Shown in pieces: positions 15,120 to 32,687 of a stretch of DNA of 64,000 nucleotides. The notes beneath the pieces are model-generated. The model searched no databases. It saw only the letters and a program-made list of their open reading frames with translations, and was not told the origin of the DNA. Both the position numbers and the translations under genes were made by a program. Within the stretch, counting starts at the first letter, position 1. Each line of letters begins with the position of its first letter. The DNA is from Bdellovibrio sp. CG22_combo_CG10-13_8_21_14_all_39_27 (GTDB lineage Bacteria; Bdellovibrionota; Bacteriovoracia; Bacteriovoracales; Bacteriovoracaceae): positions 241,641 through 305,640 of the forward strand of contig PCTW01000061.1 of the NCBI GenBank assembly GCA_002786715.1, in the 5' to 3' direction.

Positions 15120-15917
15120 ATGAGCAAGACCGAGCAATATGATCAGACTAAGCTGGAGCTTATTAAGCTCTACATTAGTGCGGTGATTGAAAAAAAAGAC
15201 GAAAGGTATTCGGAACTTTCGATTGAGGAGCTTGCGCATAAAATTGGCCTCTCTAGAACGGGTTTTTATAATATTCAGAAACACAGTGTCTCTGATAACG
15301 TCTGCCATAAAATGGCCCTTATGCTTTTTCACGAAGGGACTTGGTTAACAGCTTCGGAAAAAGGCGTCGTCACTAAATACTTGAACTCAGCTGGGTTTAA
15401 TATTGGCCCAAGTTCAGCTAATCCACAGCATGGACTTAATTGGTATCTTGAGCGTTTTACTAATACTGAAGCTATTTTAGAGCTCTATATTTTTCTCTTT
15501 TCAGAGTACGGACTTGCTGATGAATCTGTATTATCAATTGACCAGCAAGATATTTTAAAAGAGATGATTTCATTAGGTTTTGTTGAATTGAATCTCCTTG
15601 GTAACTATAAATTTAAAAAAGAGTTCGGAGAGCAATTTGAACTTCGAAACTCCTATAACAAATCTCTTTGGAATATTGCTTTTGGCTACGCCGAATACTA
15701 CAAAAAAGATCAGAGAATGGTTCAAAACTTTATCAATAGTGATGAAATTAAAATAGAGTTTATAGATGAAGCTAAGAAAATCTATAATGATTTTCAAAAC
15801 AAAATGAATAAGCTCATCGAAAAAACTCGCGGAAGTGCCAAAAAAGATCGCGAGCTTATTCTTTGGGGCGCTCTTTTTACAACCATGAATGGAAAATACA
15901 ACTCCAATCAAGATTAA
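15120..15917 (+). CDS. HTH transcriptional regulator
   Basis: 265 residues. The N-terminal segment LSIEELAHKIGLSRTGFYNI is a helix-turn-helix, with a helical effector region of ~200 residues after it. AAGGAAAAA precedes the ATG. It is divergent from the small exported proteins and overlaps the end of the convergent gene at 15914 by four bases. The layout (N-terminal HTH plus long helical part) resembles the second regulator at 19311; the two flank the three-gene operon at 15914-19024, so one or both may control it. Confidence 0.7.
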   Translation: MSKTEQYDQTKLELIKLYISAVIEKKDERYSELSIEELAHKIGLSRTGFYNIQKHSVSDNVCHKMALMLFHEGTWLTASEKGVVTKYLNSAGFNIGPSSANPQHGLNWYLERFTNTEAILELYIFLFSEYGLADESVLSIDQQDILKEMISLGFVELNLLGNYKFKKEFGEQFELRNSYNKSLWNIAFGYAEYYKKDQRMVQNFINSDEIKIEFIDEAKKIYNDFQNKMNKLIEKTRGSAKKDRELILWGALFTTMNGKYNSNQD

Positions 15918-26874: not shown

Positions 26875-27887
26875 CTCATCCTCGGATTAATGAGGGCATA
26901 GATCATATCAACGGCCATGTTGATAAAGATGATCATACCAGCGATAAAAAGAATACCACCTTGAATGACGGGATAATCTCTTGCTGTGATACTCGCGACA
27001 ATCCACTTGCCAATGCCGGGCCAGCTGAAAATGGTCTCTGTCAAAATGGCGCCAGTAATAATTGAACCAAATAAAAGTCCGATCACTGTGATGATAGGAA
27101 CCATCGCATTGCGGAGAGCATGAAGCCCTACGATTCGTCTCCAAGGAAGGCCTTTGGCCTTTGCGGTTCTAATATAATCTTCGCCCAAAACTTCTAGCAT
27201 TGAAGAGCGAGTCATTCTGGCAATCACGGCAAGCGGAATAGTTCCCATTGCTATTGAAGGAAGGAGAAGATGTTTAAAGGCACTCCAAAAAGGAGCGAAT
27301 CCATACTCTGATGTAATTTCATTCTTTAAAGTATCAATCAACATCAGGCCACTCCACATTTCGATGTCATAATTAATCGAAATGCGACCGGAGACAGGAG
27401 TCCATCCCAGTTTGACTGAGAAGATAAGTATGAGCACCAGGCCCCACCAAAAAATAGGCATGGAATAACCAATTAAAGAGCTGGTCATCAGGGCGTAGTC
27501 AAAAAAACTATTGCGCTTTAAGGCCGCAAAAATTCCCATCGGAATTCCAATGATCACGGCAAAGAAAAGGGCAACAATTCCAAGTTCCAAAGTCGCGGGA
27601 AAGCGATCTGAAAATTCTTCAATCACAGTTCTTTTAGAAACGATCGACTGACCAAAGTCTCCCTTGACGGCATTCTTTAGAAAATACCAATACTGCTCGT
27701 GCATAGGTCGATCGAGCATTAGTTTGCTTTTCATTTCAGCATAAACTTCGGGGTTCGCTCCACGTTCTCCCAGCATGATTAAAACGGGATCACCAGGAAT
27801 AAAGCGAATGACGGCGAAGCTTAAAATCGAAATCCCCACAAGAGTGGGGATGACGTGAAAGAATTTCTTAAAAAAATATCTCAGCAT
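26871..27887 (-). CDS. peptide ABC transporter permease (DppB/OppB-like)
   Basis: 338 residues. The N-terminal OppB signature (IRFIPGDPVLIMLGERGANP) and a permease domain with the EAA loop (TAKAKGLPWRRIVGLHALRN) are present, with six spans. Its ATG shares one base with the stop of the substrate-binding protein gene (TAATG). Confidence 0.93.
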   Translation of the reverse strand: MLRYFFKKFFHVIPTLVGISILSFAVIRFIPGDPVLIMLGERGANPEVYAEMKSKLMLDRPMHEQYWYFLKNAVKGDFGQSIVSKRTVIEEFSDRFPATLELGIVALFFAVIIGIPMGIFAALKRNSFFDYALMTSSLIGYSMPIFWWGLVLILIFSVKLGWTPVSGRISINYDIEMWSGLMLIDTLKNEITSEYGFAPFWSAFKHLLLPSIAMGTIPLAVIARMTRSSMLEVLGEDYIRTAKAKGLPWRRIVGLHALRNAMVPIITVIGLLFGSIITGAILTETIFSWPGIGKWIVASITARDYPVIQGGILFIAGMIIFINMAVDMIYALINPRMR

Positions 27888-29461
27888 TATTTAATATCTA
27901 CAGTTTTAAAAATGTCTCCACCCAATGGATCCATAACATAACCAGAGACATTTGAATTCATCGCTCTAAAGACGATTGAGTGAGCAATGGGAACCCAAGG
28001 AACTTCTTTGTTAAAAATTTCTTGAGCATTGAGGTAATAAGCAGTTCTTTTTTTAATATCGGGATTGCTTTTTGCAATTTTGATATTGCGATTGAATTCT
28101 TTATTGCACCAGCGTGAATAATTTGAACCCGATTGAACTCCTGAACAACCTAGCAAAACATTGAGGAAGTTGTCAGGATCGCCATTGTCGCCAGTCCAAC
28201 CCATTTGGATCATGCTATGATCTCCAACCTTTGACTTTGATAAATATGTTGGCCAATCAAATGTGACGAGTTTGACTTTTATCCCTACTGCGGCGAGATC
28301 AGCTTGCATCATCTCTCCCATCTTTTTCCCGTTTGGATTATAAGGACGAGTAACGGGGAGAGTCCACATTTCTGTTTCGAAGCCTTTTGCAAGTCCTGCT
28401 TTCTTTAAGTATTTCTTAGCAAGCTCTGGATTGTAATCATAGCCTTTGATCTTTTTGTTATAACCCCAAATGGTAGGAGGCATTGGATTAACGGCCTTTA
28501 CTGCATGTCCTTGATAAATCGCTTGAATATAAGCGTCTTTATTTAAGGCGTGATTGATGGCTTTTCTGACCCAAATATTTTGAAAAGGTTTCTTCGTTAC
28601 GTTCATGGCAAGGTAACCGACGTTAAAGCCAGGAGCTTCCATTACTGAAATGGTTTCACTTGCTTTCATCGCTTCGATATCGTTAGGAGAGGGCTCGATG
28701 ATCAAGTGACATTCGCCAGTTTTAAGTTTTTGGTATCTGACAGAGGCATCAGGAGTAATTGAAAAAACGAGCTTCTCAATTTTTGGTGCGCCTTCGAAAT
28801 AATTCTCATTTCTTTCATAACGGATCAAAGTGTCTTTTTGATATTTTTGGAAAACAAAGGGACCTGTTCCTATTGGATATTGATCGATTTCATCTTTGCG
28901 ATTTTCTTTGGCCAACATATCTGCGTACTCTTTTGAAAGAACGCTCATGAAAGACATCGCCATGTTCGCTAAGAAGGGAGCATCTGCTTCAGTTAAAGTA
29001 ATTTTGACTGAATAATCATCAACTTTTGCCACGGCCTTGATGATTTTATCCATTTCCATACCCGTAAAGTATTCATAAGAACCGCCTCCAACCATATGGT
29101 AGGGGTGATCTTTTAAAAGCTGGCGATTGATTGAAAAAAGTACGTCGTCAGCATTAAATTCACGAGTAGGGCTAAAATATTTGGTGGTGTGAAACTTAAC
29201 TCCCTTGCGAAGTTTGAAGGTATAAGTTTTTTTATCTTTAGAAATTTTCCAAGATTCAGCAAGAGCAGGAACGATCTCAGTTGTACCAAGCTTAAATTCT
29301 ACTAAGCGATTGTAGATGGTTAAACCAGCAGCATTATGTGAAGTCCCATCAGTCGTGATTTGAGGATTAAAGGCTGAAGGAGAACCCTCAGAGCAATAAA
29401 CAAATGTCTTTGCTTGAGCAGCAGACATAAGAAAGAAAAAGGCAGTGATCATGAATTTCAA
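27887..29461 (-). CDS. peptide ABC transporter substrate-binding protein (DppA-like)
   Basis: A TTG start at 29461 is chosen because CAGGAG lies seven bases upstream and the signal peptide (KFMITAFFFLMSAAQA) follows. 524 residues. SBP family 5: the N-terminal part (SPSAFNPQITTDGTSHNAAG) and KDKKTYTFKLRKGVKFHTT are typical of DppA/SapA. Periplasmic receptor for di/oligopeptides or, as in other DppA, haem. No lipobox, so soluble. First gene of the operon with all five subunits, fitting a proteolytic lifestyle with many secreted proteases nearby. Confidence 0.92.
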   Translation of the reverse strand: MKFMITAFFFLMSAAQAKTFVYCSEGSPSAFNPQITTDGTSHNAAGLTIYNRLVEFKLGTTEIVPALAESWKISKDKKTYTFKLRKGVKFHTTKYFSPTREFNADDVLFSINRQLLKDHPYHMVGGGSYEYFTGMEMDKIIKAVAKVDDYSVKITLTEADAPFLANMAMSFMSVLSKEYADMLAKENRKDEIDQYPIGTGPFVFQKYQKDTLIRYERNENYFEGAPKIEKLVFSITPDASVRYQKLKTGECHLIIEPSPNDIEAMKASETISVMEAPGFNVGYLAMNVTKKPFQNIWVRKAINHALNKDAYIQAIYQGHAVKAVNPMPPTIWGYNKKIKGYDYNPELAKKYLKKAGLAKGFETEMWTLPVTRPYNPNGKKMGEMMQADLAAVGIKVKLVTFDWPTYLSKSKVGDHSMIQMGWTGDNGDPDNFLNVLLGCSGVQSGSNYSRWCNKEFNRNIKIAKSNPDIKKRTAYYLNAQEIFNKEVPWVPIAHSIVFRAMNSNVSGYVMDPLGGDIFKTVDIK

Positions 29462-29657
29462 AATAAACTCCTGAGCCAAAGAATAAGGCATTTAATATAG
29501 TGATTATTTTTTGCTTATTTCACTAATATGACAACAGTTTCTGGACTCATGTTGCAGCGCAAATGCGATAATTTAAGATTATAATCCCATGGACTCTGCG
29601 TGTTGAGCGGTGAAGAAGAGAGCTCAGTCCAATCTCTACCAAAAATAGCTTTCGCAA

Positions 29658-30425
29658 TTAATAGCTTTTAAGACCTATGATTAATCCTTCGGTGTTTAAA
29701 AATTGAAAAAGTTCAGAGACGAGATTCTCTTCTCCTGCAGAAAAATGCTCAGTGCCTAATTCCATCGCCTTCAAGAAAGGGTGAGTCTTGAGTAATTCGA
29801 GTAAGGCCAGTTGGGCCGGCCTTAATAGATGAGTTTTAATTTTTTCCGATTTATTTTTATAAAGAACAAAATGATTATCAAGCCATTCAATTTCGTTCAG
29901 ATTTTTCGAGTCATGGTTTGGTAAATCCCAAATCTCAAGTAACGGATGGGAAGATTGATAAGGCCTGAGTAGGGGACTAAGTTTTAAACCGAGATCAGAG
30001 TTCGTTTGAATCTGAGTTAACAATTCTGGCGCGATCGCCTCAGGAACTGCGGCATGAAAAAAGTCCTGAAAATGGTATTCAATATCGGCCAGCTCTGGTA
30101 GAAAGGGAAATTCTTCACTGACTTCTTGGTCTCGCAAATAAACTGAAAACTTTTCACCATAAAGCCCAAGATCATAAAAAGGACTGGGGTGTGTTTGAAT
30201 ATATTTTTTTCCAACTTCGAAGAAAAGATCATCTCCCAAAATCTTCCAAACAGAGACAAAATGTTCGTTCAGAACACTTTGAAGTCTAATGTGGTAATCA
30301 TTGTAATAGACCCACATGACTTCATCCGCGCGAAGCTTTCCGGCAGGGATGAGCAAATCTGAGAGCTCATTTTTTTGATTGGGATTCATCAGGAGTGAGA
30401 AGAAGCTCTCTTGGAATTTCTTCAT
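29658..30425 (-). CDS. DUF2063 protein, MNIO partner (HvfC/BufC-like)
   Basis: 255 residues. The N-terminal ~90 residues (FQESFFSLLMN ... YYNDYHIRLQSVLNEHF) match the DUF2063 helical domain; a variable C-terminal domain follows. Such proteins act with DUF692/MNIO enzymes, holding the precursor peptide for modification. Its ATG overlaps the stop of the DUF692 gene (ATGA), so the two are co-translated. GAGGAG precedes it. Confidence 0.85.
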   Translation of the reverse strand: MKKFQESFFSLLMNPNQKNELSDLLIPAGKLRADEVMWVYYNDYHIRLQSVLNEHFVSVWKILGDDLFFEVGKKYIQTHPSPFYDLGLYGEKFSVYLRDQEVSEEFPFLPELADIEYHFQDFFHAAVPEAIAPELLTQIQTNSDLGLKLSPLLRPYQSSHPLLEIWDLPNHDSKNLNEIEWLDNHFVLYKNKSEKIKTHLLRPAQLALLELLKTHPFLKAMELGTEHFSAGEENLVSELFQFLNTEGLIIGLKSY

Positions 30426-31231
30426 TGATACTCCTCGATAATGGCCTGTGCTTTCTTGGCCTCTGCGACTACTACCGAGAGTTCAGGAATATCTTCATCC
30501 CATTCAATAATAGTAGGAACTGCTCCCACTCTTTTTATTAAATGATGATAGAGAGTCCAGACCTCAGGATAAACAGGCTTTGAGTGGGTATCGAGTAGAA
30601 ACTTCCCCGTATCGGTGAAGCCGGCCAAGTGAACTTGGGCGATTTTATGTTGAGGAATGGCATCAAGGTAAATTTTAGGATCGAAGCCATGATTTTGAGC
30701 GTTCACAAAGACGTTGTTCACATCCAACATCATCATGGCGTCAGTTTCAGCGAGCAACTTTTTCCAAAATTCCCATTCAGTCATGGTTGAAGTTTTAAAG
30801 TCGACGTAAGCTGATAAGTTCTCAAGAGCAATGGGTCTCTTTAAATAATCTTGAACTTCTATAATGCGATCTTTTAAAAAAAGAAAACTCTCTTCGTTAT
30901 AGGGAACCGGTAACAGATTATGAGCGTTACTATGGGGAAGTCCGGTCCAGCACAAATGATCACTCACTACTGAAGGTTCAAAAACATCGATAAATTCTTT
31001 GAGAGTCTTAAGATAATCCTCGCGAGGGCCTTGATGACTCGCAATCGACAATGAAACGCCATGAAAGGAGAATTGATAGTTCTCTCGAAGCTTCTCAAGA
31101 ATAGACCAAGGACGACCCTTAGATGTCATATGATTTTCGCTTAGGGCTTCTAGGTAATTGATTTCCTGTGGAGGAGATTCCTCCCATTCATTGTAGTGTG
31201 ATGTTCTAAGTCCAATTCCAACTAAATTCAT
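30422..31231 (-). CDS. DUF692 / MNIO enzyme (HvfB/BufB-like)
   Basis: 269 residues, full length for the family. Metal-binding and family motifs in order: SENHM (~32), FHGVSLSIAS (~57), VSDHLCW (~89), ALENLSAY (~134), MMMLDVNNVFVNAQNHG (~167), QVHLAGF (~194), DTHSKPVYPEVW (~208), IIEWDEDIPE (~236). MNIO enzymes use two or three iron atoms and O2 to convert Cys residues of RiPP precursors, for example to thiooxazoles in copper-binding bufferins. The likely substrate is the Cys-rich peptide encoded at 32217-32507. Confidence 0.93.
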   Translation of the reverse strand: MNLVGIGLRTSHYNEWEESPPQEINYLEALSENHMTSKGRPWSILEKLRENYQFSFHGVSLSIASHQGPREDYLKTLKEFIDVFEPSVVSDHLCWTGLPHSNAHNLLPVPYNEESFLFLKDRIIEVQDYLKRPIALENLSAYVDFKTSTMTEWEFWKKLLAETDAMMMLDVNNVFVNAQNHGFDPKIYLDAIPQHKIAQVHLAGFTDTGKFLLDTHSKPVYPEVWTLYHHLIKRVGAVPTIIEWDEDIPELSVVVAEAKKAQAIIEEYQ

Positions 31232-31311
31232 AGTGCCTCATAGTGAAAGATTACACTCTATGAGTCAATCTCGAGGCCTTTTTGTGACAAAAAAGTTATA
31301 CTTCACTCATT

Positions 31312-32220
31312 ATGACGATTGCTTACCTGGCCCCAGAAGACCGACTCAATGATCTTTTGTTCGAACTTGAACAAAAGGGCGTTACTGAACCCAAAATCAT
31401 CGAGCGTTTAGTCATTTGTGAATCTGGCCCCGAGACTTCAGTTTGGGCGCAAAATATTTGGTATGATGTTGAAACTCATCACTTTGAATCCATTAAACAA
31501 GCCTCAACCCTTTTGCGTGAGCGCGGTCGAAATTGGGCGTTGTATCCGACGGCCAATGTGAGGAGGGCGCGTTTAATTGAAGATCAATTACCACACTTTA
31601 GGCCAAAGCTTTTAACTTTTCCTACCTCTCTACCATCAGCACCTGTGGGAGCATGGACTCTGCTCGATGATAAAACTCTTTTATGTGCCGCCAAAACGGA
31701 TTCTCCAATGGCCTTGGGTGAATACAAGTTTGTTGAAGATAAAATTTCTCCTCCCTCTCGCGCCTATTTAAAACTTTGGGAAGCACTTACTCGCTTACAA
31801 AAATACCCTAATGAGAAATCGCGTAGTATGGATTTAGGGGCCTGCCCCGGAGGATGGAGTTGGGTTCTTTTGAATTTAGGATCGCAACTTCAAAGTATCG
31901 ACAAAGCTCCCCTTGATCCCAAAATCATGAAACATCCGAATCTTATTTATCGTCAAGAGAGTGCTTTTGGAATTGAACCTAAGAATGAAGAAAAAGTGGA
32001 TTGGTTATTTTCTGATATCATTTGTTATCCTCCGCGCTTATTGAACCTGGTTCAGAGGTGGATCGAGGCAGAAAAAAATACTAATTTTGTTTTCACGATT
32101 AAGTTTCAAGGAGAAACGGACACAAAAACTCTCAATGATTTTTTAAGCATTGAGGGCTCTTATGCCCGTCATCTTTATAATAATAAACACGAAGTCACTT
32201 GGTTTTTAATTCGCGATTAA
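31312..32220 (+). CDS. RlmM-like 2'-O-ribose methyltransferase
   Basis: 302 residues. The C-terminal half is an FtsJ-type SAM methyltransferase: motif I DLGACPGGWSWVLL near residue 177, then IDKAPL and the acidic DWLFSDIICYPPRLL; the K-D-K-E-like residues can be traced (Lys in FVFTIKFQG). The N-terminal half resembles the THUMP-like part of RlmM, which modifies C2498 of 23S rRNA. It lies on the opposite strand between the MNIO gene pair and their precursor gene, overlapping the precursor stop by four bases. Confidence 0.8.
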   Translation: MTIAYLAPEDRLNDLLFELEQKGVTEPKIIERLVICESGPETSVWAQNIWYDVETHHFESIKQASTLLRERGRNWALYPTANVRRARLIEDQLPHFRPKLLTFPTSLPSAPVGAWTLLDDKTLLCAAKTDSPMALGEYKFVEDKISPPSRAYLKLWEALTRLQKYPNEKSRSMDLGACPGGWSWVLLNLGSQLQSIDKAPLDPKIMKHPNLIYRQESAFGIEPKNEEKVDWLFSDIICYPPRLLNLVQRWIEAEKNTNFVFTIKFQGETDTKTLNDFLSIEGSYARHLYNNKHEVTWFLIRD

Positions 32221-32507
32221 GCTTCGAACTTGCCACCTTTTTTCTCGCAAGATGCTTTATCCATTTTATTCCATCCCATGCCTTTGCAAGCATTGTGGGC
32301 CTTACACTCGTTGCCTTTTGAATCACAACCATTTTTACTATCACAGCCATGGCCTTTGGTGCTGCAATCTCCATGTCCCTTGCAAGCATTTACACCGTAG
32401 CATTTCCCGGTCTTAACATCTGAAGTTTGCGAATTGGTAGTAGCGGCACAGCTGGCAAGAGTTAATCCCGCAAAAGCGGCAGTGACGAGTAGTTTTTTAG
32501 CGTCCAT
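32217..32507 (-). CDS. bufferin-like (HvfA/BufA) Cys-rich RiPP precursor, possible lipoprotein
   Basis: 96 residues. The signal peptide ends in LTLASC, which fits a lipobox (LASC), so the precursor may be lipid-anchored. The mature part has eight further Cys in the family pattern: KCYGVNACKGHGDC, HGCDSKNGC, ECKAHNACKGMGW, then ASCEKKGG. These match precursors modified by DUF692/DUF2063 pairs and shown in other bacteria to bind copper. AAGGAG precedes the ATG. The enzyme genes lie 985 bases further left on the same strand with an opposing gene between, so this is a split operon. Confidence 0.85.
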   Translation of the reverse strand: MDAKKLLVTAAFAGLTLASCAATTNSQTSDVKTGKCYGVNACKGHGDCSTKGHGCDSKNGCDSKGNECKAHNACKGMGWNKMDKASCEKKGGKFEA

Positions 32508-32687
32508 GGGTATCTCCTTTTTAATAAAATGAACGAGAGTATTTTCACTCCCTTTTTATAAAGATTGGTGAATATCTTTGAAGTTTTGTGACAACTAAAT
32601 TCATTCCATCGCAAATTCAATGATTTATACCCTGTAATTTGTTTCACGATCATTGCGTCAAATAAGGAGTTATGAGATTGTCCGGCC

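Follow-up and report, generated by a model that had tools for sequence, protein, structure and literature searches.

A bufferin locus with an RlmM-like gene between its precursor and maturase genes in a Bacteriovoracaceae genome

How does a bufferin locus come to have an rRNA-methylase-like gene, read in the opposite direction, between its precursor gene and the genes of its modifying enzymes, and does such a locus still work? The question arose in a 64,000-nt stretch (the window; positions 241,641-305,640 of contig PCTW01000061.1) of the genome of Bdellovibrio sp. CG22_combo_CG10-13_8_21_14_all_39_27 (GCA_002786715.1). The host lineage is Bacteriovoracaceae, related to predatory bacteria. The comparison covered 129 genomes of the host's order, among them three of a sister genus with a compact locus. 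We lean towards the reading that insertion of the methylase gene broke an ancestral operon into two separately promoted, co-induced units, with the precursor modified in trans. The system would probably still work, with matching promoters seemingly on both halves.

A Buf2 locus in broken order

The genes concerned are the following.

27887-29491, minus strand: dppA-like peptide-binding protein gene, downstream of bufC
29658-30425, minus strand: bufC, DUF2063 partner of the MNIO enzyme, 255 aa
30422-31231, minus strand: bufB, MNIO/DUF692 (multinuclear non-haem iron) bufferin maturase, 269 aa
31312-32220, plus strand: FtsJ/RlmM-like rRNA 2'-O-methyltransferase gene, 302 aa, presumably inserted
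32217-32507, minus strand: bufA2, bufferin precursor, 96 aa

The product of bufA2 passes the NCBIfam model Cu_RiPP_BufA2 (NF050166; 64.5 bits, cut-off 60) and that of bufB passes MNIO_BufB (NF050167; 324.5 bits, cut-off 310). BufB also matches Pfam PF05114 (9.7e-98), aligns with the MNIO-family structures 3bww and 8hci, and retains the conserved motifs HGVSLS (57), SDHLCW (90), LENLSAY (136), LDVNN (169), VHLAG (200), LDTH (213) and IEWDED (242). In a Pfam search, bufC matches DUF2063 (PF09836) at 5e-12 and 46.4 bits, above the cut-off of 27.2; its match to an HvfC-family model is weak. With a BufA2 precursor, a bufferin-type MNIO maturase and a DUF2063 partner all present, the initial assignment to a bufferin-type RiPP system holds, and the window contains a true Buf2 member with broken gene order: a known system in an unusual layout. 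The dppA-like gene (687 bits against the DppA model, below the cut-off of 1005) is a synteny marker of the locus and stands outside the bufferin system.

The precursor carries a Sec signal and a lipobox (LASC) ending at C20, followed by eight cysteines (36, 42, 48, 55, 61, 68, 74 and 87), and the ribosome-binding-like sequence AGGAG lies upstream of its ATG. Because of the lipobox motif, BufA2 is probably lipidated; predicted lipoproteins account for about 16% of Buf2 (PMC12452194). By analogy, we regard it as a putative copper-binding peptide. Buf2 precursors have six cysteines (90%) or 12 (PMC12452194), a usual count and no curated requirement, from which the eight of the window precursor depart; the eight-cysteine type recurs in about ten related genomes (G004, G005 C30, G012, G031, G059, G080, G086, G092, G093 and G141). 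All reading frames at the locus are intact.

The layout given in the preliminary description proved exact to the base. The precursor gene lies 985 bases from bufB on the same strand, the plus-strand RlmM-like gene fills the gap, and the stops of this gene and bufA2 overlap by four bases. The four-base overlap of bufC and bufB is likewise there; their co-translation, which had been stated outright, is what we infer from that overlap. An Rfam search of the interval from 29 to 34 kb returned zero RNA families.

Ancestral gene order and the intervening methylase gene

Three genomes of the sister genus (G007, G087 and G088) have the order dppA-bufC-bufB-bufA2; the four genes share one orientation, bufB and bufA2 are immediate neighbours, and sfsA comes after the compact locus in G007, as it does in the window. 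A further relative (G091) has a compact cluster that is also dpp-linked, and bufC is still followed by a dppA homologue in G007, G087, G088, G091 and G110. In the BufB tree the window enzyme groups with those of G110, G007, G087 and G088 with a support of 0.90; its pairing with G110 is supported at only 0.55. The gene-order comparison that had been proposed as a check thus reveals the ancestral compact order. It agrees with the expectation that precursor, enzyme and partner usually form one operon, as does the strict bufABC order, which comes from preliminary analyses (PMC12452194). An uninterrupted bufABC order is a usual, non-defining Buf2 trait, which the window lacks through its RlmM-like gene. 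Because three sister-genus genomes carry bufA2 beside bufB at the same locus, we take the methylase gene to be a lineage-specific insertion between the two. The stretch from bufA2 to sfsA holds three plus-strand genes, which were probably also added in the window lineage.

The methylase gene matches FtsJ (PF01728) at 1.5e-8 and is missing from the compact syntenic loci of relatives. It reaches 92 bits against the RlmM equivalog model, under the cut-off of 176, with the C-terminal part alone aligning; for this reason we call it RlmM-like only, RlmM being the 23S rRNA C2498 methylase. Its orthologues in five relatives (L164, L165, L167, L168 and L170) adjoin SpoU-type and/or RlmI-like methylase genes, as identified by Pfam for representative neighbours, and have no bufferin genes beside them. 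This company of other rRNA-methylase genes led us to reject the idea that the gene works as part of the bufferin system. Its convergent overlap with bufA2 is ordinary: of the window's 13 convergent pairs, four overlap, and in a second of these four the overlap is likewise exactly four bases (15914-15917).

A different history would have the original precursor lost, as in G110, and a precursor of the eight-cysteine type settling nearby later. The window BufA2 is indeed closest to the eight-cysteine type of other genera (54% identity to G005 C30), and the nearest relatives of the window BufB are enzymes whose precursors have six cysteines. Against this, identity to the compact syntenic precursors is nearly as high (45-47%), and window and syntenic precursors have in common the start KC.GVNACKG.GDC and the end GW.KM; the sequences are too short to tell the two histories apart. 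We consider such a replacement unlikely.

The genome holds two MNIO genes and two bufA2 genes. The second set, on contig C55, is compact and runs in one direction as yceI-bufA2-bufB-bufC; its BufB is 47% identical to that of the window. It has the same three bufferin genes and differs from the window locus in its unbroken order, in a precursor with six mature cysteines rather than eight, in the YceI gene in front and in an ECF sigma gene at a distance of about 3 kb. A second precursor gene directly beside a DUF692 gene was the finding that, by the preliminary description, would count against its case: the cell also has an unbroken bufferin operon, which removes the idea of a dependence on the split copy, and the split of the window locus stands regardless. 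YceI-family genes also lie directly before bufA2 in several phyla (L035, L042, L048, L053, L098, L105, L123, L176, L177 and L196), and YceI is possibly a recurrent bufferin partner.

Promoter elements of the two units

Upstream of bufA2 and of bufB we found the following elements.

32567-32593, minus strand: putative ECF-type promoter of bufA2, TGTCACA-N15-TCACC
32584-32594, minus strand: copy of TTGTCACAAAA upstream of bufA2
31263-31289, minus strand: putative ECF-type promoter of bufBC, TGTCACA-N15-TGACT, with a weak -10 part
31280-31290, minus strand: copy of TTGTCACAAAA upstream of bufB

The two copies of the 11-mer have the same orientation and lie at -87 (bufA2) and -59 (bufB) from the start codons. 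The 4.08-Mb genome contains ten copies, and seven of the eight outside the locus fall inside reading frames. Sharing as much as this was seen in about 1 of 100 upstream pairs, for an 11-mer spotted after looking.

From the first genes of relatives' bufferin operons, using zero window sequence, we learned a promoter motif de novo. It consists of TGTAACA, 15 bases and [GT]CAC[AT], with a spacer of 15 or 16 overall (TGTAACA-N15/16-CAC), and scores 62.1, compared with at most 41.9 in 15 shuffles. With 15 non-redundant sequences the score is 46.9, against maxima of 34.8 in shuffles and 38.3 for other genes of the same loci. The bufA2 site scores 12.1 with the window-free model, where about 0.005 such sites are expected per 150-nt upstream stretch. 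The bufB site scores 9.8 or 6.6 depending on the training set, and the non-redundant model gives a chance expectation of about 0.13 sites as good as this one in such a stretch. The promoter of yceI on C55 fits as well (0.009 expected by chance). The putative promoter of bufA2 is fairly well supported by these matches; a common sigma factor for bufA2 and bufBC is a tentative proposal, resting mostly on the shared TTGTCACAAAA.

The relatives' motif resembles the tested sigma-F promoter of Caulobacter, GTAACC-N16-CGAA, which drives two DUF2282-DUF692-DUF2063 operons (PMC3511200), in its -35 core and spacer, and three relatives (G004, G012 and G080) carry GTAACA-N16-CGAA. Aligned to the sigma-F promoter, the window sites read GTCACA-N16-CACC at bufA2 and GTCACA-N16-GACT at bufB. 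Nine sigma-70 region 4 genes are present in the genome, three of them of related ECF types (on contigs C55, C36 and C34); a genome search for an NrsF homologue found none, and the window cluster contains no ECF gene. Sigma-factor genes have been reported in Buf1 clusters and none in Buf2 (PMC12452194), and the motif is a testable link of Buf2 bufferins to ECF sigma control. Genome-wide, the full promoter pattern occurs at 7 sites, compared with 5 in a reversed control, and therefore defines no regulon; one further site precedes a phosphate-transporter gene. TGT-N-ACA forms a small palindrome, at which a repressor could bind; a simple palindromic operator is less likely, as the TGTAAGA and TGTAATA of some relatives lose the palindrome with the distance to the second box unchanged.

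Two further loci carry related sequences. In L257 (1501-1527), TGTAACA-N15-TCACT lies just 5' of a PHO4-family phosphate-transporter gene, which is followed by a radical-SAM-like gene. L267 (1-1645) has an ECF sigma gene of the type found near the C55 cluster and a divergent AhpC/TSA gene with the promoter-like TGTAATC-N15-ACACT.

These elements bear on the suggestion that the methylase gene, transcribed convergently, depresses precursor expression or uncouples it from that of the enzymes, the locus being down-regulated or decaying. Because the stops overlap, neither transcript can end before it has entered the opposing gene; in a scan for sigma-70 promoters and terminators, no hit at the convergent junction or at any of the three starts rose clearly over the chance level, and the junction showed no terminator-like site; and the compact C55 cluster could relieve selection on the window locus. 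However, the frames are intact with precursor cysteines and enzyme motifs kept, bufA2 comes with a ribosome-binding site of its own and a sequence that fits the promoter motif well, and overlapping convergent genes are common in the window. The claim that the split reduces or separates precursor expression fares poorly, with both units having their own upstream regions that share a rare element, and with separation, even to unlinked loci, being recurrent and retained in the family. Interference by the opposing gene is thus possible, lacks positive support and, in our estimate, is the least probable account of the locus.

Recurrent separation and likeness to known systems

Across the order we found 43 BufB loci in 39 of the 129 genomes. 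In a tally made by hand from neighbourhood listings, a cysteine-containing precursor-like gene lies directly upstream at 32 of them, the precursor is detached at ten (the window, G006 C4, G110 and seven g15 genomes) and one is unclear (G026). G110 has an sfsA that overlaps bufB, and its two bufA2 copies sit on contigs other than this one. Each of the seven g15 genomes has a single BufB and a single BufA2, which lie on separate contigs; in the best assemblies both contigs are long (73 and 138 kb in G071), so the unlinking there is no contig-end artefact. Among 14 g15 genomes eight have BufA2, including all seven with BufB (hypergeometric 0.0023, kinship ignored). In g15 the surroundings of the lone precursor gene are conserved, and beside it lies a divergent gene that has weak matches to MarR/ArsR/TrmB-type regulators; the promoter motif is not common to the unlinked bufA2 and bufB of g15. 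In G072 (L192 and L213), bufBC belongs to another clade than in the other g15 genomes and the precursor sits in the same g15 neighbourhood, which suggests replacement of the enzymes with the precursor left in place. Because enzymes and precursors co-occur yet are unlinked, bufferin maturases probably act in trans.

Several features of these loci were seen in passing. At G006 C4 (L036, 4817-6422), an orphan bufBC lies in a precursor-free vicinity, and the genome has another complete cluster. The stand-alone g15 bufA2 (L208-L216 except L214) is preceded by a conserved block, TTACAAAAATATAATA. Four g15 loci (L188, L189, L194 and L199) have a conserved, lysine-rich small frame of 54-66 aa (MGDK...KHGKK) on the opposite strand between sfsA and bufB, the slot expected for the precursor.

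In another reading, the window bufBC would serve mainly the C55 precursor, or both precursors, with the window bufA2 a stand-alone precursor served by either pair. Two bufA2 and two bufB genes do occur in one genome, relatives have unlinked precursors and orphan bufBC (G006 C4, G110 and g15), and pairings look loose in G072. Yet the two precursors differ, with eight mature cysteines in one and six in the other, and neither is closer to the other's enzymes than to its own; we think such cross-serving improbable.

We prefer a course that begins with a single operon, bufA2-bufB-bufC followed by dppA. An rRNA-methylase gene would have moved in between bufA2 and bufB in the opposite direction, leaving bufA2 alone as one unit and bufBC as another, expressed from a promoter within the 80 bases that separate bufB from the methylase gene. 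BufB and BufC would still modify the precursor, as the proteins can meet in the cytoplasm and need no common mRNA. The matured peptide would be exported by Sec, would probably be lipid-anchored and would bind excess periplasmic copper, and both units would probably keep their co-induction, under metal stress, through the common ECF sigma-type promoter element. Beyond anatomy, ancestry and promoter resemblance, this mechanism is drawn from the bufferin literature. A broader and more doubtful idea is that precursors and maturases part repeatedly in Bacteriovoracaceae, where an ECF-type promoter (TGTMACA-N15/16-CAC), not the operon, would provide co-induction and one enzyme pair would serve several dispersed precursors; the window would then be an intermediate stage.

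RiPP mining usually seeks precursors beside enzymes, and with repeated separation such neighbourhood rules miss precursors; separated bufferin loci are also natural test cases for enzyme action in trans. Our literature search on bufferins in Bdellovibrio and on orphan DUF692 precursors retrieved nothing relevant. Sizeable proportions of bufferin precursors are not linked to MNIO genes (PMC12452194), so stand-alone precursors are already known, and what we add is the family-level history of separation.

The window locus resembles the described Buf2 clusters, bufA2-bufB-bufC, in precursor family, MNIO maturase, DUF2063 partner, Sec signal and lipobox, and differs from them in the opposing gene that parts precursor from enzymes and in having eight cysteines rather than six or 12 (PMC12452194). 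With stand-alone bufferin precursors (PMC12452194) it has in common a precursor predicted to be transcribed on its own; unlike theirs, its enzymes lie within 1 kb and the order that preceded the break can be seen in its relatives. The sigma-F regulon of Caulobacter crescentus (CC2907-2905 and CC3254-3257; PMC3511200) offers a likeness in promoter form, its bufferin operons being driven from a GTAAC-type -35 with a 16-base spacer; there, in contrast, the precursors are of the Buf1 (DUF2282) type and sigF-nrsF adjoins a cluster, whereas the window genome is without NrsF.
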